This document shows positions 2,948 to 37,630 of a stretch of DNA of 40,021 nucleotides, piece after piece (the first letter of the stretch is position 1; every line of letters starts with the position of its first letter). The notes under the pieces are model-generated. The model was not told the origin of the DNA, ran no database searches, and was given only the letters and a program-made list of their open reading frames with translations. This stretch comes from Lactobacillaceae bacterium. GTDB lineage: Bacteria > Bacillota > Bacilli > Lactobacillales > Lactobacillaceae. The stretch lies in NCBI GenBank assembly GCA_031289015.1, contig JAITQG010000031.1, positions 1 to 40,021 on the forward strand. Direction: 5' to 3'. A program made the position numbers and the translations under genes.

Positions 2948-3190
2948 AATAAAATAAAAAGTCCCGCCCAAACTAATTAAAGTTTGCGCGGGACGTTAAT
3001 GACAACGTGGTACCACCCGAATTCACCGGACTTCACATAAAAATGTACATCAACCGGCCTCAAAAAGAGTTATTCAAATGTGTTTTTTGCTGATAAATTA
3101 TTTTGTTGAAATTCCTGGCTCACACCATCTCCAGGTCGCTTGAAAATATCAAAATAATCGTTTGGTCAAAAAACTCTAAGTCAATAATAG
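2948..3190 (-). promoter_or_regulatory. T-box leader of ileS (tRNA-Ile sensing)
   Basis: Reading the minus strand, the stem I distal region has GATGGTGTGAGCC. The T-box bulge TGGTACC sits in GGGTGGTACCACG (3006-3018). The anti-terminator is unusually clear: CGGG and ACGTT pair with AACGT and CCCG (2989-3019), leaving the expected 7-nt bulge. The competing terminator is GTCCCGC.../...GCGGGAC at 2961-2994, followed by TTTTTATTTTATT. A candidate specifier codon ATC is at 3092-3094; its assignment is tentative. Uncharged tRNA-Ile should favour read-through into ileS. TTGAC-like -35 sequences occur near 3160-3185, but I could not pick one promoter with confidence. Confidence 0.95.
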
Positions 3191-25450: not shown

Positions 25451-25679
25451 AAAAAGCCTGTAGTCTGCATACCAACAGACTACAGACTTAAATCAAGTCA
25501 ATAGTTGTGTCGATAGCGCCCCGCAGCCGACAAATTTTGCTGCGACAGTCTAAGCGTTATTCACGCTTAGCCCAACAGATTGATTTGCCAACCAATCCAT
25601 TTCGGCAACCGTCCCTTTCACATCCGTCAATGTCTACCGACTCGAAATGTTACTAATGTTGGTTGCGACCTCTATGTCT
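25451..25679 (-). promoter_or_regulatory. Lysine riboswitch (L box) with terminator
   Basis: On the minus strand the leader has the L-box landmarks in order: AGAGGT (25668-25673), GAAAGGGACGGTTGCCGAA, a TTGGTTGGC arm, CTGTCGCAGC...GCTGCGGGGCGCTATC (to about 25511). A strong terminator follows: CTGTAGTCTG pairs with CAGACTACAG in a 13-bp stem with one mismatch (25455-25488), then TTTTT. In known L boxes lysine binding favours termination, so lysine should repress the permease. Confidence 0.93.
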
Positions 25680-25693
25680 TATTACAAGTTTTT

Positions 25694-33919: not shown

Positions 33920-34690
33920 TTAATAAATATGGAAATACTCCAACAAGTCAGGAATCGTCAATTTTGTCTTGTCATCCCCACTCACGTCCAATGAAATCGC
34001 CCCATCATTCATGATCAACAAGCGATTACCATACTTAATGGCATCTTCCAAATGATGCGTAATCATCAAAGCGGTCAAGCCGTCTTCATGAATTCGCTCA
34101 TTGGTCATGGCCATCAGTTGCTCACTCGTCTTTGGATCAAGGGCCGCTGTATGTTCATCTAGTAACAACAAATCTGGCCGGCGCCGTGTGGCCATCAAAA
34201 AACTCAAGGCTTGGCGTTGACCACCCGACAAATCACCCGTTGCCATCTCCAAACGTGAATCCAACCCATTACCCATCGTGGCGGCCACCTGTACGAACTC
34301 GTCGCGCTTTTCAGCATTTAAGCCCCGGTTCTTCAAGCGGCGCGACAACCCACGACGTTCAGCTAACAATAAATTCTCCGCAACGGTCATCCGCGGTGCC
34401 GTTCCTAACTTAGGGTCTTGAAAGACGCGTGCCAAAAATGATGTTCGATCAGTTTCGCTAAGTTTCGAAATATCTTTGCCACTGACCAAAATTTGACCTG
34501 ACGTCAATGGTAGTGTCCCAGCAATCACGTTGAACAACGTCGACTTGCCAGCCCCGTTAGAACCCAACAAGGTCACAAAGTCGCCTTCATGAATTTGCAA
34601 ATTAACTTGCTTTAAAATTGTTTTTTCTTCACTCGTCCCAGCGTTGACCACGACGGTTGCATCGATTAATTCTAAATTCGCATTAGTCAT
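33920..34690 (-). CDS. trpZ: TrpXYZ-type ABC transporter ATP-binding protein
   Basis: The 256-residue ATPase has Walker A GSNGAGKST (about 43-51), Q-loop VFQDPKLG, signature LSGGQRQA, Walker B LLLLDEHTAALDP and switch His in ITHHLEDA. The E in LDEHTAALDP is the catalytic glutamate. It overlaps the permease gene by 8 nt and ends the operon. It would energise uptake of the ligand bound by the protein encoded at 35587-36588, proposed to be tryptophan. Confidence 0.9.
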   Translation of the reverse strand: MTNANLELIDATVVVNAGTSEEKTILKQVNLQIHEGDFVTLLGSNGAGKSTLFNVIAGTLPLTSGQILVSGKDISKLSETDRTSFLARVFQDPKLGTAPRMTVAENLLLAERRGLSRRLKNRGLNAEKRDEFVQVAATMGNGLDSRLEMATGDLSGGQRQALSFLMATRRRPDLLLLDEHTAALDPKTSEQLMAMTNERIHEDGLTALMITHHLEDAIKYGNRLLIMNDGAISLDVSGDDKTKLTIPDLLEYFHIY

Positions 34691-35585
34691 GTGCCTTCAC
34701 CCCGTTTTTCATCACTGAATTCAACTTAAGTCCACTCCGAATCCGTGGCAGCAACAAAGCCAAGCCCAAGATCACGGCGCTAAACAAGTTCAAATCGTTG
34801 GCGTTGAAGCCCAATGCGAGCACAACGACCAAGACGAAACGATACAAGATTGAGCCAATCACAATTGTGATCAACCGGTCAGTCAGCGTCATTTGTTCGC
34901 TAAAGACCACTTCACCAATGATAATGGATGCCAAGGCCACAACGATAATCCCGATCCCCATATTCACATCAGCAAAGCCATTGTTTTGAGCGACCAATGC
35001 ACCACCCAGAGCGATTAAGGCGTTTGAAATCATCAAGCCCATGTTCGTCATCCGATCCGTGTTAATCCCCATCGAGCGGGCCATGGAGGCATTATCCCCG
35101 GTGGCGATAAATGATTGCCCCAGTTCAGTTTGCAAGAAAATCGCCGTCCCCACCGTAATCACGGTGATGATAATCAAGCCGACAATCACCGTTGGAAAAT
35201 TCGTTGGTAAGAAATTCAGCGCCTTGTCGTTAAACATCGTCGTTTTGCCCAGCAATGAGCGATTAGCTTGTCCCATGATCCGCAGATTAATTGAATAAAT
35301 CGCCGTCATGGTCAAAATCCCCGCCAATAAAATTGGAATCTTGCCCTTGGTGTACAACAAGCCTGTCACCAAGCCTGCCAACGCCCCAGCAGCCGCAGCG
35401 ACCAATGACGCGATGATAGGTGAAATCCCCATCGTAATCAACGTCACCGCCACGGCCGCTCCTAAGGGAAACGTTCCTTCAACGGTCATATCTGGGAAGT
35501 CTAAAATCCGAAAGGTCAAGAATAAACCAATTCCTAACGCGGCCCACAAAAGCCCTTGTCCGATTGCTGAACTAACTACGCCCAT
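34683..35585 (-). CDS. trpY: TrpXYZ-type ABC transporter permease
   Basis: The 300-residue membrane protein has eight to nine hydrophobic segments and resembles branched-chain-amino-acid-type permeases (FLTFRILDFPDMTVEGTFPLGAAVA near the start, GLVTGLLYTKGKIPILLAGILT, TGDNASMARSMGINTDRMTNMGLMISN). This is the subunit usually paired with pfam ABC_sub_bind proteins. It begins 1 nt after the binding-protein stop and overlaps the ATPase gene. Confidence 0.9.
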   Translation of the reverse strand: MGVVSSAIGQGLLWAALGIGLFLTFRILDFPDMTVEGTFPLGAAVAVTLITMGISPIIASLVAAAAGALAGLVTGLLYTKGKIPILLAGILTMTAIYSINLRIMGQANRSLLGKTTMFNDKALNFLPTNFPTVIVGLIIITVITVGTAIFLQTELGQSFIATGDNASMARSMGINTDRMTNMGLMISNALIALGGALVAQNNGFADVNMGIGIIVVALASIIIGEVVFSEQMTLTDRLITIVIGSILYRFVLVVVLALGFNANDLNLFSAVILGLALLLPRIRSGLKLNSVMKNGVKAHD

Positions 35586-35586
35586 G

Positions 35587-36588
35587 TTACTTTACCTCAT
35601 TCTCCACATACTTGGCTTTACTTGCATATTCAGCCGGAATCGTAATCCCCAGCTTCTTGGCTTGTGCTTTGTTAATCACCAAATCACCTTGCTTCATAAA
35701 TTCAACTGGCGTATCCGCTGGCTTTGAACCGTCCAAAAGCTTGGCGATCATCTTGCCTGTTTCAACCCCAATCTTCTTTTGATTAATTGATTCAGCAGCC
35801 ACACCACCCTGTTCTACCATTGTATCAACAGTTGGGAAAACTGGCACGCCAGCTTCATCAGTATTTTGAATCAACGTCGTCATCGCCCCAGCAATCGTAT
35901 TGTCAGTTGGGACGAAAACGGCATCGACATTGTGATTTTGCACCAATTGTAATGACGTTTGGTTCAAATCATTGGATGAAGCAATCGACGTCTTCTTAAC
36001 CGTCAATCCAGCTGCTTTAGCTAATTTTTCAAACTTGCTAGCTTCTGTGGTGGCTGAATCATCTGAAGAAGTATAAATAATCCCTACCGTCTTTAAGTTA
36101 GGCATCAAGGCTTGCATCATCTTTAATTGATCCTTCAACGGTGCTTGGTCAGACACACCAGTTACGTTGCCACCAGGGTGCGTATAGCTCTTCACCAACT
36201 TTGCGCCCAGTGGGTTCGTTGAGGCTGAGAAGACGACTGGCGCATCTTTAACGGTATTGGCAACCGCAACCGCTGCCGGTGTGGCGATTCCAACTGAGAC
36301 CGCCGCTTTTTCATCAGCAAACCGCGTTGACATGGTCTTCAAATTTGATTGATCACCTTGGGCATTTTGGAAATCGATTTTCACATCGGTCCCCACTTTA
36401 TAACCACCTTCTTTTAGGCCTTCACGTAAGCCTAGATAGATTTGATCAAGCGCGGGATGCGACATAAATTGCAACACGCCAACCGTTGGCACCTCAGTCT
36501 TTTTATTATCCTTTTGCATTTCCACAAAGCCCGTGAAAACCAATACGCCCGCCAAAACAACTAATGCACCTAATACTTTTTTATTCAT
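35587..36588 (-). CDS. trpX: ABC transporter solute-binding protein, proposed tryptophan-binding (TrpX-like)
   Basis: The 333-residue protein belongs to the ABC_sub_bind family: VGVLQFMSHPALDQIYLGLREGL, AQGDQSNLKTMSTRFAD, PVVFSASTNPLGAKLV, GNVTGVSDQAP and DAVFVPTDNTIAGAM. Members of this group (TrpX) are predicted tryptophan/tyrosine uptake proteins. The leader with tandem Trp codons upstream makes tryptophan the best guess. The N-terminus is one hydrophobic helix (about 5-22) with no lipobox cysteine. The ribosome site is GAGG about 9 nt upstream. It heads the trpXYZ operon. Confidence 0.88.
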   Translation of the reverse strand: MNKKVLGALVVLAGVLVFTGFVEMQKDNKKTEVPTVGVLQFMSHPALDQIYLGLREGLKEGGYKVGTDVKIDFQNAQGDQSNLKTMSTRFADEKAAVSVGIATPAAVAVANTVKDAPVVFSASTNPLGAKLVKSYTHPGGNVTGVSDQAPLKDQLKMMQALMPNLKTVGIIYTSSDDSATTEASKFEKLAKAAGLTVKKTSIASSNDLNQTSLQLVQNHNVDAVFVPTDNTIAGAMTTLIQNTDEAGVPVFPTVDTMVEQGGVAAESINQKKIGVETGKMIAKLLDGSKPADTPVEFMKQGDLVINKAQAKKLGITIPAEYASKAKYVENEVK

Positions 36589-36650
36589 GCTTCATTCCTC
36601 ATTCTCTTTGTTTTTCCCAGGTTTAGTTACCGCGTAGACGTCTTTCTGGG

Positions 36651-36687
36651 AAAAAAAGAAGTCTGCACGATAACCCGTGCAGACTTC
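36651..36687 (-). terminator. Attenuator terminator in the trpX leader
   Basis: GAAGTCTGCACG and CGTGCAGACTTC form a perfect 12-bp stem with a 6-nt loop (36658-36687), followed by seven T (36651-36657) on the minus strand. It lies 63 nt upstream of trpX and downstream of a leader peptide, so it must be bypassed for operon expression. The T tract plus CCCAG can also pair with CTGGGAAAAA at 36611-36620, giving a hairpin near the trpX start. Confidence 0.93.
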
Positions 36688-36699
36688 AACATTTGTTTG

Positions 36700-36784
36700 A
36701 AAGTCGTTAGCACAGATTTGGCTTGCACAATAAAGTGCACGTGCCAAATCTGTTCTAAACAAACAGTTTGGCCGTGTTAACGAC
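36700..36784 (-). promoter_or_regulatory. Competing hairpins between the leader peptide and the attenuator
   Basis: On the minus-strand RNA: GUCGUUAACAC (36774-36784, the end of the leader ORF) pairs with GUGCUAACGAC (36703-36713) at 10 of 11 positions. GCCAAACUGUU (36762-36772) can pair with AACAGAUUUGGC (36743-36755), whose AACAG..GGC strand alternatively pairs with GCCAAAUCUG (36713-36722) in a long hairpin. GACUUU (36700-36705) can pair with GAAGUC (36682-36687), the 5' arm of the terminator. Thus leader-end pairing, anti-terminator and terminator are mutually exclusive. Pairings were found by eye; no energies were computed. Confidence 0.7.
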
Positions 36785-36821
36785 GCCACCAATTATTCAA
36801 TTGTCCGTTTGCCTTTTGCAT
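36777..36821 (-). CDS. Tryptophan leader peptide, MQKANGQLNNWWRR
   Basis: This 14-codon ORF encodes MQKANGQLNNWWRR and stops at TAA. AGGTGG (36830-36835) lies 8 nt before the ATG, a strong ribosome site. Codons 11 and 12 are both TGG for Trp, placed just before the segment that pairs with the downstream leader. It lies between a strong promoter and a strong terminator upstream of a TrpXYZ-type transporter. By analogy with E. coli trpL, a ribosome stalled at the Trp codons when charged tRNA-Trp is scarce would cover the 36774-36784 segment and allow the anti-terminator. The ORF is too short to be found by usual gene callers. Confidence 0.85.
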   Translation of the reverse strand: MQKANGQLNNWWRR

Positions 36822-36865
36822 AACTACTTCCACCTAATGTGTAAATTCTACTTTTAATAATCAAA

Positions 36866-36894
36866 ATAATAGCACGCCACTTTTTTTGCGTCAA
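36866..36894 (-). promoter_or_regulatory. Promoter of the trp leader/trpXYZ operon
   Basis: TTGACG (36889-36894), 17-nt spacer (36872-36888), TATTAT (36866-36871) on the minus strand. A start near 36859 gives a leader of about 270 nt before trpX. Confidence 0.85.
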
Positions 36895-36909: not shown

Positions 36910-37581
36910 TCAATCGTGGTGATGGTGGTGATGGTCCTCTTCGACCGGTTCCACCAAGCTATTAGCTACCATCCACAACTTCGCCGCCTGCAACTCAGCT
37001 TGACTCATGCCATGCGAAGTTTGATACATAAACGTCGACACATGGGCCCCCGCTTTATGAAAATTGTCAGCTAAGGCGTTGAAATTTTCTTCAGTCACAA
37101 TCGGATCAAATTCACCATATGACATAAAAATTTTGGCGTCAGTTAAAGCCACTGGTTGGGCCACGGCTTCAATCAGCATCGGATGAAAAAAGGCCGCCGT
37201 TTTAAACGGTACTTGCGGATTATCCAACATCATCTGCGCCGCAATATTAGAGCCATTTGAATACCCAATCACGATTAAATCAGCGGGTTCAATATCATAG
37301 CGCACCGCCAAATCCATAATGGTTTTAAATAACCAAGCGGCTTCTTCATGCAATGAAGCTAGATTAAAACTGCCATCTTCATAACGTTCAAAAAAGCGGT
37401 TCAAACCATTTTCATTCACCCGCCCCCGCAGCGAAATTTTAGGATTATCGGCACCAAAAAACTCGGCCAATTCAAGCATGTCAGTCTCATCCCCACCTGT
37501 ACCATGCAATAACAACATTGGGGCTAATTCAGGGTCGCCAGAAACATAGGCGTGGCGAATATTTGCAGTCTTTTTTGCCAT
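36910..37581 (-). CDS. Alpha/beta hydrolase (carboxylesterase, MhqD-like) with a native His6 tail
   Basis: The 223-residue protein has LLLHGTGGDETD, the nucleophile elbow GYSNGS (S108), acid D159 in GEFDPIV and H190 in QTSHGM, a complete triad of the phospholipase/carboxylesterase family. B. subtilis MhqD, from the mhqED operon induced by methylhydroquinone, belongs here, and the next gene upstream resembles its partner MhqE. The protein ends EEDHHHHHHD, a natural six-His tail. ATG 37581 has GGAG at 7 nt spacing; an ATG one codon earlier is possible. A terminator separates it from the dioxygenase gene. Confidence 0.82.
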   Translation of the reverse strand: MAKKTANIRHAYVSGDPELAPMLLLHGTGGDETDMLELAEFFGADNPKISLRGRVNENGLNRFFERYEDGSFNLASLHEEAAWLFKTIMDLAVRYDIEPADLIVIGYSNGSNIAAQMMLDNPQVPFKTAAFFHPMLIEAVAQPVALTDAKIFMSYGEFDPIVTEENFNALADNFHKAGAHVSTFMYQTSHGMSQAELQAAKLWMVANSLVEPVEEDHHHHHHD

Positions 37582-37630
37582 CATTTTTCTCCGTTTAGTT
37601 AGTGCTTCCATTGTAGCTGATTTACTTACA

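Follow-up and report, generated by a model that had tools for sequence, protein, structure and literature searches.

The trpXYZ-type operon in the window (the whole 40,021-nucleotide stretch of contig JAITQG010000031.1 that was analyzed) raises the question of how a lactic acid bacterium controls the uptake of tryptophan. The initial annotation had placed a tryptophan leader-peptide attenuator in front of this operon, and we found that this core reading is strongly supported by conservation, covariation, and a test of ribosome position. Evidence for it is all computational, and it makes it highly probable that trpXYZ is controlled by a Trp leader peptide through ribosome-mediated attenuation of transcription.

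The operon and its host

The gene trpX (positions 35,587 to 36,588, minus strand) encodes the substrate-binding protein of a tryptophan ABC transporter. Its proposed identity downstream of the leader is borne out by a score of 448 bits, over the cut-off of 390, against the equivalog model NF041285, with PF04392 also matching, and the best match of TrpX among solved structures is PDB 3lft (1.6e−80). On the same strand lie genes for a TrpY-like permease (34,683 to 35,585; PF02653) and a TrpZ-like ATPase (33,920 to 34,690; PF00005), both of which are named by position. We take the host genus to be Weissella. Because 26 of 28 genomes of the genus, that of the host among them, have no trpB gene, Trp uptake matters to these bacteria, and the cell probably depends on it; the host, having no trpB, is a likely Trp auxotroph. 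The trpB genes of genomes G001 and G023 have no credible leader within 800 nt upstream.

Upstream of the leader is a gene for an MhqD-like hydrolase (36,910 to 37,611, minus strand; 149.9 bits, under the model cut-off of 325), the C-terminal end of which is a natural six-histidine run (EEDHHHHHHD). Of the Rfam families, one alone reaches its gathering score in the window, a lysine riboswitch aptamer (25,506 to 25,682, minus strand; 116.7 bits).

Anatomy of the leader

All parts named in the initial annotation (a promoter-like site, a Shine-Dalgarno sequence, an ORF, hairpins, and a terminator) were found on the minus strand. The sigma-70-like promoter TTGACG-17-TATTAT (36,866 to 36,894) has a 10/12 match, with TG before the −10 element. 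Sites of this pattern occur in the region about as often as chance predicts (5 versus 5.9 expected); a promoter-like 9-of-12 site is present in 18 of 26 leaders of the genus (88 nt searched) versus 19.6% of mononucleotide shuffles. The 14-codon leader ORF MQKANGQLNNWWRR (36,821 to 36,777) and its Shine-Dalgarno sequence AGGTGG (36,830 to 36,835) are present as described, with the adjacent TGG codons at 36,791 to 36,786 and the stop codon TAA at 36,779 to 36,777.

We numbered the segments of the leader that can pair with each other from 0 to 6. Region 0 (36,805 to 36,814, minus strand), which lies inside the ORF, is predicted to pair with 36,766 to 36,757 when no ribosome is present; on its own, the 0:1 duplex of the window is unremarkable (equalled by 47 of 500 shuffles). 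Just 3′ of the stop codon, region 1 (36,761 to 36,775, minus strand) is predicted to pair with region 2 (36,755 to 36,739) in the stalled state. Region 2 (36,743 to 36,754, minus strand) is the 5′ arm of hairpin P1 and has either region 1 or region 3 as its partner. Region 3 (36,697 to 36,722, minus strand), which consists of the 3′ arm and shoulder of P1, has two possible partners, region 2 and, as an antiterminator, region 4; its duplex with region 4 is equalled by 4 of 500 shuffles. The pairing of 36,705 to 36,700 with 36,687 to 36,682 that had been noted earlier belongs to this predicted antiterminator. Regions 4 and 5 make up the intrinsic terminator T1 (36,658 to 36,687, minus strand), which, as claimed, stands before trpX with a tract of seven T (36,651 to 36,657, minus strand), and whose stem, first given as 12 bp, we count as 13 pairs including one G-U and 7 G-C. 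Region 6 (36,630 to 36,646, minus strand) is complementary to region 5 (36,670 to 36,651) in the predicted fold, and beside it a second hairpin without a U-tract pairs 36,655 to 36,646 with 36,620 to 36,611 on the same strand. The 211-nt leader folds much more stably than its shuffles, with a z score of −7.3.

From these elements, we propose the following mechanism, of which we infer the translation of the ORF, the response to Trp, and the kinetics. Transcription of the leader by RNA polymerase would be accompanied by translation of MQKANGQLNNWWRR by a ribosome. If charged tRNA-Trp is scarce, the ribosome would stall on UGG-UGG and strip region 0 off region 1; region 1 would then pair with region 2, freeing region 3 to take region 4, and the antiterminator 3:4 would block T1 and allow trpXYZ to be transcribed. 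If Trp is plentiful, the ribosome at the stop codon would cover region 1, P1 (2:3) would form, and region 4 would be free to enter T1 (4:5) and terminate transcription. If the leader is not translated, the ORF would pair with region 1 (0:1), and the formation of 2:3 and 4:5 would again leave the operon off.

Conservation of the leader peptide

The leader ORF and its Trp codons are kept in relatives, both within the genus and across the family. In the genus set of 27 main trpX loci (L001, L002, and L004 to L028), 26 have the leader ORF, and all 26 leaders have 14 codons, TGG at codons 11 and 12, and a stop at codon 15 (codon positions of L004 were counted from its second ATG). A purine-rich, Shine-Dalgarno-like stretch, as judged by eye, stands in front of these ORFs. 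Within the peptide, N9 is invariant in the genus, while Q7 and L8 vary, with the changes at L8 being mostly synonymous. L017, whose TrpX is the closest among the relatives (79%), has no leader ORF, and its upstream gene reaches a terminator remnant, which looks like a natural deletion of the ORF. The second copies of trpX found in two members of the genus (L030 and L031) are each preceded by their own leader with one Trp, SLNMAWQSRHLRS and NLNMAWQSRHTRS. At another locus (L029), a broken-up trpX match was found, and an intact leader nearby adjoins a different stretch; because the genome (G008) is 66% complete, this oddity is possibly an assembly fault.

In the family sample of 72 Lactobacillaceae trpX loci (L046 to L117), a Trp leader is present at 69, of which 64 were identified by a script that requires a terminator and 5 by eye. 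Those recognized by eye are L078, L075 (with a CTG start), L107 (MKIVFKNNSAWWWLG, whose Shine-Dalgarno sequence is not clear), and L047 and L086, where the leader is located farther upstream. At L090, the script chose the wrong frame, and the leader reads MRNSLSTVVLTWQSQQ. No leader was seen at L083, L084, and L085 of the family sample or at the separately fetched L042; at L042 and L083, trpX starts directly behind another reading frame. Common forms of the peptide tail are QLNxxWQSR and QLNNAWWRR. Eight loci under the TrpX cut-off (L118 to L125) stand outside the family count; seven have no credible leader, and L122 is a repeat of L117. The family and RF04312 sets overlap at two loci (L132 is L079, and L138 is L076), and L069 is a repeat of L038.

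Mutually exclusive helices covary

To the anatomy and conservation computed above, the alignment of 23 of the 26 genus leaders (L010, L011, and L012 were omitted as near-identical to L009) adds covariation of helices 1:2, 2:3, and 4:5. P1 (2:3) is paired in 96.9% of cells, has double changes at 7 of 10 pairs, and has a covariation score reached by no shuffle. The covariation score of helix 1:2 (90.2% paired, double changes at 5 of 8 pairs) is likewise reached by no shuffle, although its number of pair types is not exceptional (as high in 118 of 500 shuffles). Helices 1:2 and 2:3 share region 2 and are therefore mutually exclusive, and both covary. T1 (4:5) is 93.6% paired, with double changes at 8 of 11 pairs; its lesser measures are not exceptional (doubly changed pairs and pair types as high in 58 and 74 of 500 shuffles, respectively). 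The GUGC:GCAC part of helix 3:4 is weak in this alignment (83.7% paired, with the doubly changed pairs matched by 170 of 500 shuffles), because its register slips between species. Covariation, folding, and the duplex test together agree with a mutually exclusive antiterminator and terminator, with the 3:4 columns themselves being weak.

The initial annotation had also proposed a pairing of 36,784 to 36,774 with 36,713 to 36,703 and a switch in which a ribosome stalled at the Trp codons covers the first of these arms. This pairing exists in the window, but the genus keeps only 65.2% of its cells paired, versus 96.9% for 2:3 and 90.2% for 1:2, and we dropped it as a general switch. The conserved switch is instead the chain of helices 0:1, 1:2, 2:3, 3:4, and 4:5.

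Predicted folding depends on the position of the ribosome

Given the weak column covariation of 3:4, we used an energy test that does not rely on an alignment. The transcript was folded up to the T1 loop, and the cost of keeping the 5′ arm of T1 (region 4) unpaired was calculated, with the ribosome represented by removal of the sequence up to 13 nt beyond the start of the A-site codon. We located 136 leaders, placed T1 at 60 to 105 nt from the stop codon in 98 of them, and retained the 90 that were non-identical. The 38 unused leaders include those in which the terminator finder gave no result, the wrong hairpin, or the second hairpin, and a few wrong placements of T1 are probably left among the 90 (e.g., L049, L051, and L100). 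In all energy tests, kinship among the loci is uncorrected.

The mean cost across the 90 leaders is 3.9 kcal/mol with no ribosome, 6.9 kcal/mol with the ribosome at the first Trp codon, and 4.6 kcal/mol with the ribosome at the stop codon, versus 4.9, 5.1, and 5.3 kcal/mol, respectively, when the stretch from the stop codon to T1 is shuffled. The difference in cost between stall and stop is 2.29 in the real leaders and −0.17 in the shuffled ones (the means of six sets range from −0.34 to 0.03). In 56 of the 90 leaders, the stalled state costs over 1 kcal more than either other state, whereas the six shuffled sets contain 8, 9, 8, 11, 12, and 9 such leaders. This three-state pattern is found in 14 of 21 leaders from Weissella, 16 of 36 from Lactobacillaceae, and 26 of 33 from the RF04312 loci; under the 1-kcal rule, 34 of the 90 leaders do not have it. 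With the leader ORF shuffled, the no-ribosome cost is 5.70 instead of 3.85, and in 44 of the 90 leaders (about 13 expected) the unshuffled ORF gives a lower cost than all six shuffles. The folding model thus gives a no-ribosome state that depends on the ORF itself, and a predicted off/on/off pattern for no translation, stall, and completion.

The dependence of folding on ribosome position holds in silico across the 90 leaders in comparison with shuffles, and in the window the costs are 1.6 with no ribosome, 8.7 at the first Trp codon, and 5.1 at the stop codon. When the blocked stretch is extended past region 2, the cost climbs again to 11 to 15, as the chain of helices predicts. At a cost of 5.1, the stop state of the window is only partly switched, and its minimum-energy fold retains 3:4; therefore, termination with the ribosome at the stop codon would require help from kinetics or from a larger ribosome shadow.

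The leader is related to the trpB motif

Narunsky et al. (2024) described the trpB motif (Rfam RF04312, SRC-39-1) as a strong candidate for a riboswitch; they report over 900 representatives from Firmicutes and Fusobacteria, which most often precede an uncharacterized ABC transporter, and state that a classic attenuator is still possible (PMC11109978). The excerpted text of that paper on the motif mentions no leader ORF. The leader of the window has no match to RF04312 at E up to 1 and stays below the gathering score of 59 bits, and the model has no match in the host genome or the other Weissella genomes listed. One leader of the family sample (L079) reaches 60.1 bits. At E up to 1e−3, RF04312 has matches in 44 of the 121 genomes of Lactobacillaceae, 5 of them over the cut-off, and in 87 of the 148 genomes of the order, 35 of them over it; at E up to 1e−4, it matches 1 of 348 genomes across the phylum, a member of Lactobacillales. 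These large searches, confined to the phylum of the host, used stricter filters, by which weak matches are lost.

We opened the 38 best-scoring RF04312 loci (L130 to L167), some of which are close relatives. A Trp leader ORF, defined as an ORF of 8 to 30 codons that is preceded by a Shine-Dalgarno sequence, has Trp within its last nine codons, and ends near the motif start, is present beside RF04312 at 38 of these 38 loci versus 1.8% of 3,800 dinucleotide shuffles; under a stricter Shine-Dalgarno rule, the leader at L161 is missed. Judged by eye, the downstream genes include trpX, trpB-like genes (L133, L135, L136, L144, L148, and L167), and, at L131, a gene for an oligopeptide-type binding protein. 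The strongest RF04312 match (L130, 86.6 bits) has an apparent group II intron reverse transcriptase downstream, also by eye.

To a search in the opposite direction, with a model (R1) built from 23 Weissella leaders, we offered 22 of the 38 RF04312 loci. R1 finds 13 of the 22 at E < 0.01 (best 1.4e−7, the E-values being rough), while its best E on eight trpX loci with a T-box is 0.36. By these matches, the Weissella leaders and RF04312 are relatives, and the window holds a divergent member missed by the Rfam model. In the host genome, R1 has 16 matches at E up to 10, with the leader first and its terminator, read on the other strand, second. Of the remaining 14 (E of 0.007 to 8.8), three were opened as candidates for further copies of the leader (L190, L191, and L192); each lies where a coding region ends, lacks a leader ORF, and appears to be a chance match.

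Like the leader in the window, RF04312 has P1, a terminator, and an antiterminator in the right shoulder of P1, and it lies upstream of amino-acid ABC transporters or trpB, according to the excerpts of its description (PMC11109978). It differs in that the Rfam model begins 3′ of the leader ORF and that the class is filed as a riboswitch candidate. The claim that such a system is undescribed in lactic acid bacteria therefore holds only in part: the related RNA is published as RF04312, but the leader ORF is absent from the excerpted description. Judging from these sequence comparisons, a Trp leader attenuator is the likely identity of the trpB motif.

A possible relay of two terminators

Among 87 leaders with a readable downstream stretch, 63 have a second terminator, T2, between T1 and the gene (14 of 21 in Weissella, 27 of 36 in Lactobacillaceae, and 22 of 30 in RF04312). 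Unpairing the 5′ arm of T2 costs 10.48 when region 5 is free, 3.19 when region 5 is removed (as if locked in T1), and 6.50 when region 5 is taken from other loci. A leader's own region 5 has a mean rank of 0.86 (0.5 expected) and, for 41 of 63 leaders, is among the top 10% (Wilcoxon P of about 2e−11, with kinship uncorrected). In the shuffle version of this test, performed on those leaders of a set of 57 that have T2 (41), the cost is 10.55 versus 6.25, and the real value exceeds all six shuffles in 24 of 41. We also considered whether T2 arose by duplication of T1. The two 5′ arms of one leader have a longest common substring of 3.89, versus 3.33 for arms paired from other leaders, and simple duplication therefore does not explain the 5:6 pairing. 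In the window, the 5:6 pairing is kept (−16.4 kcal, equalled in 4 of 500 shuffles), but no U-tract follows the second hairpin, and a U-tailed second terminator is lacking.

These data suggest a two-stage relay attenuator, with two terminators in series, in most of the related leaders examined, a reading for which we see the chances as evenly balanced. In such a relay, formation of 3:4 would release region 5, the 3′ arm of T1, which would then pair with region 6, the 5′ arm of T2, and switch T2 off as well. If T1 forms, region 6 would be free, and T2 would stop polymerases that leak past T1. A single stalled ribosome would in this way open the two terminators together, and leakage without a stall would be caught by T2. 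The window may represent a form that retains 5:6, with a second hairpin that lacks the U-tract. The relay is the part of the system that could be new in kind; excerpts of the open-licence PMC literature contain no recognizable description of one. If real, it would be a simple route to a leak-proof RNA switch.

Other explanations of the leader

The leader might instead be a riboswitch of the trpB-motif type, with Trp or a similar small molecule as its direct ligand and the ORF being incidental. The listing of the related RF04312 as a strong candidate (PMC11109978) and the covariation of P1 and the terminator would fit this explanation, yet it is very unlikely, given the Trp leader ORF at every one of the 38 best-scoring RF04312 loci, a P1 sequence that varies widely among genera while the Trp codons are retained, and covariation of 1:2 even though region 1 is upstream of P1. 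Still less probable is a TnaC-like arrest peptide that senses free Trp at the stop codon. Q7, L8, and N9 before the Trp codons are conserved, L8 partly through synonymous codons, and the Trp codons are near the stop codon; however, an importer would be expected to be induced by shortage rather than excess, and the fold test favors read-through with the ribosome at the Trp codons over the stop codon. Short ORFs are common, and the ORF could in principle be an unselected frame next to a terminator that serves as a plain end or as leak control. We give this explanation even less weight because the Trp codons are invariant in 26 of 26 leaders, the exclusive helices covary, and the ribosome-position wiring vanishes on shuffling.

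Control of trpXYZ by a T-box or TRAP element, as in other Firmicutes, has precedents: trpXYZ of S. suis is under T-box control (PMC9382623), and in genus g43, from which we fetched the 2 trpX upstream regions that match RF04312 and 12 that do not, a T-box stands in 8 of the 14 regions and RF04312 in 2, with the remaining 4 showing neither element at gathering score. The leader of the window, however, has no Rfam match at gathering score, and no T-box (RF00230) at that score was found upstream of trpX in the window, at L001 and 19 further loci, or at 20 more Lactobacillaceae trpX loci. The TRAP gene is present in 0 of 28 genus genomes, and the longest array of KAG repeats in the leader is 2. 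We regard control by either element as hardly credible, the least probable of these alternatives to attenuation by the Trp leader peptide. Elsewhere in the host genome, there are 17 T-box matches at E up to 1e−3, 6 of them over the cut-off, and the contig of the window has one far from trpX (2,986 to 3,178, minus strand) that, at 47.9 bits, is under the gathering score. The g43 loci suggest that one operon type is read by two Trp sensors in one genus. Nine of the 14 (L168 to L172 and L174 to L177) also have a very short ORF with KRWR or KRWH (e.g., MKKRWRLIL) about 80 to 115 nt upstream of trpX, 7 of which share the leader with a T-box; this ORF is possibly a second Trp sensor.

Comparison with known systems and significance

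In the trp and his attenuators of E. coli, a short ORF contains cognate codons, and stalling or completion of translation selects the antiterminator or the terminator. The leader in the window appears analogous in its cognate-codon ORF and its predicted choice between stall and completion; its chain of six segments is reminiscent of the E. coli his attenuator, and the WWR tail of its peptide is reminiscent of E. coli TrpL. It differs in its Gram-positive host and transporter operon, and its relatives differ in often having a second terminator in series. By these computational signs, the system is the same kind of machine as the proteobacterial attenuators, in another lineage and operon.

Histidine leader peptides are known in bacilli (PMC2965389), and His attenuators are known in Firmicutes (PMC9413887). 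According to excerpts of these papers, they are similar to the system proposed here in that leader-peptide attenuation replaces other regulators, and they differ in amino acid, genes, and lineages. The Trp T-box of streptococcal trpXYZ, as excerpted, shares the operon type, the signal (charging of tRNA-Trp), and the outcome (antitermination) with the system in the window, but it senses the tRNA directly (PMC9382623), and no T-box at gathering score was found in the window. Excerpts of the open-licence PMC literature hold no recognizable account of a Trp leader peptide for trpXYZ or the trpB motif.

A Trp leader attenuator would give a function to RF04312, an orphan RNA class with more than 900 representatives (PMC11109978, in excerpt). 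It would also show two distinct Trp sensors before one operon type inside one genus (g43), and that leader-peptide sensing in the proteobacterial style is widespread among lactic acid bacteria in the control of Trp uptake, a role in which T-boxes were expected. For the host, a likely Trp auxotroph, the leader switch would be a controlled gate for the entry of Trp.
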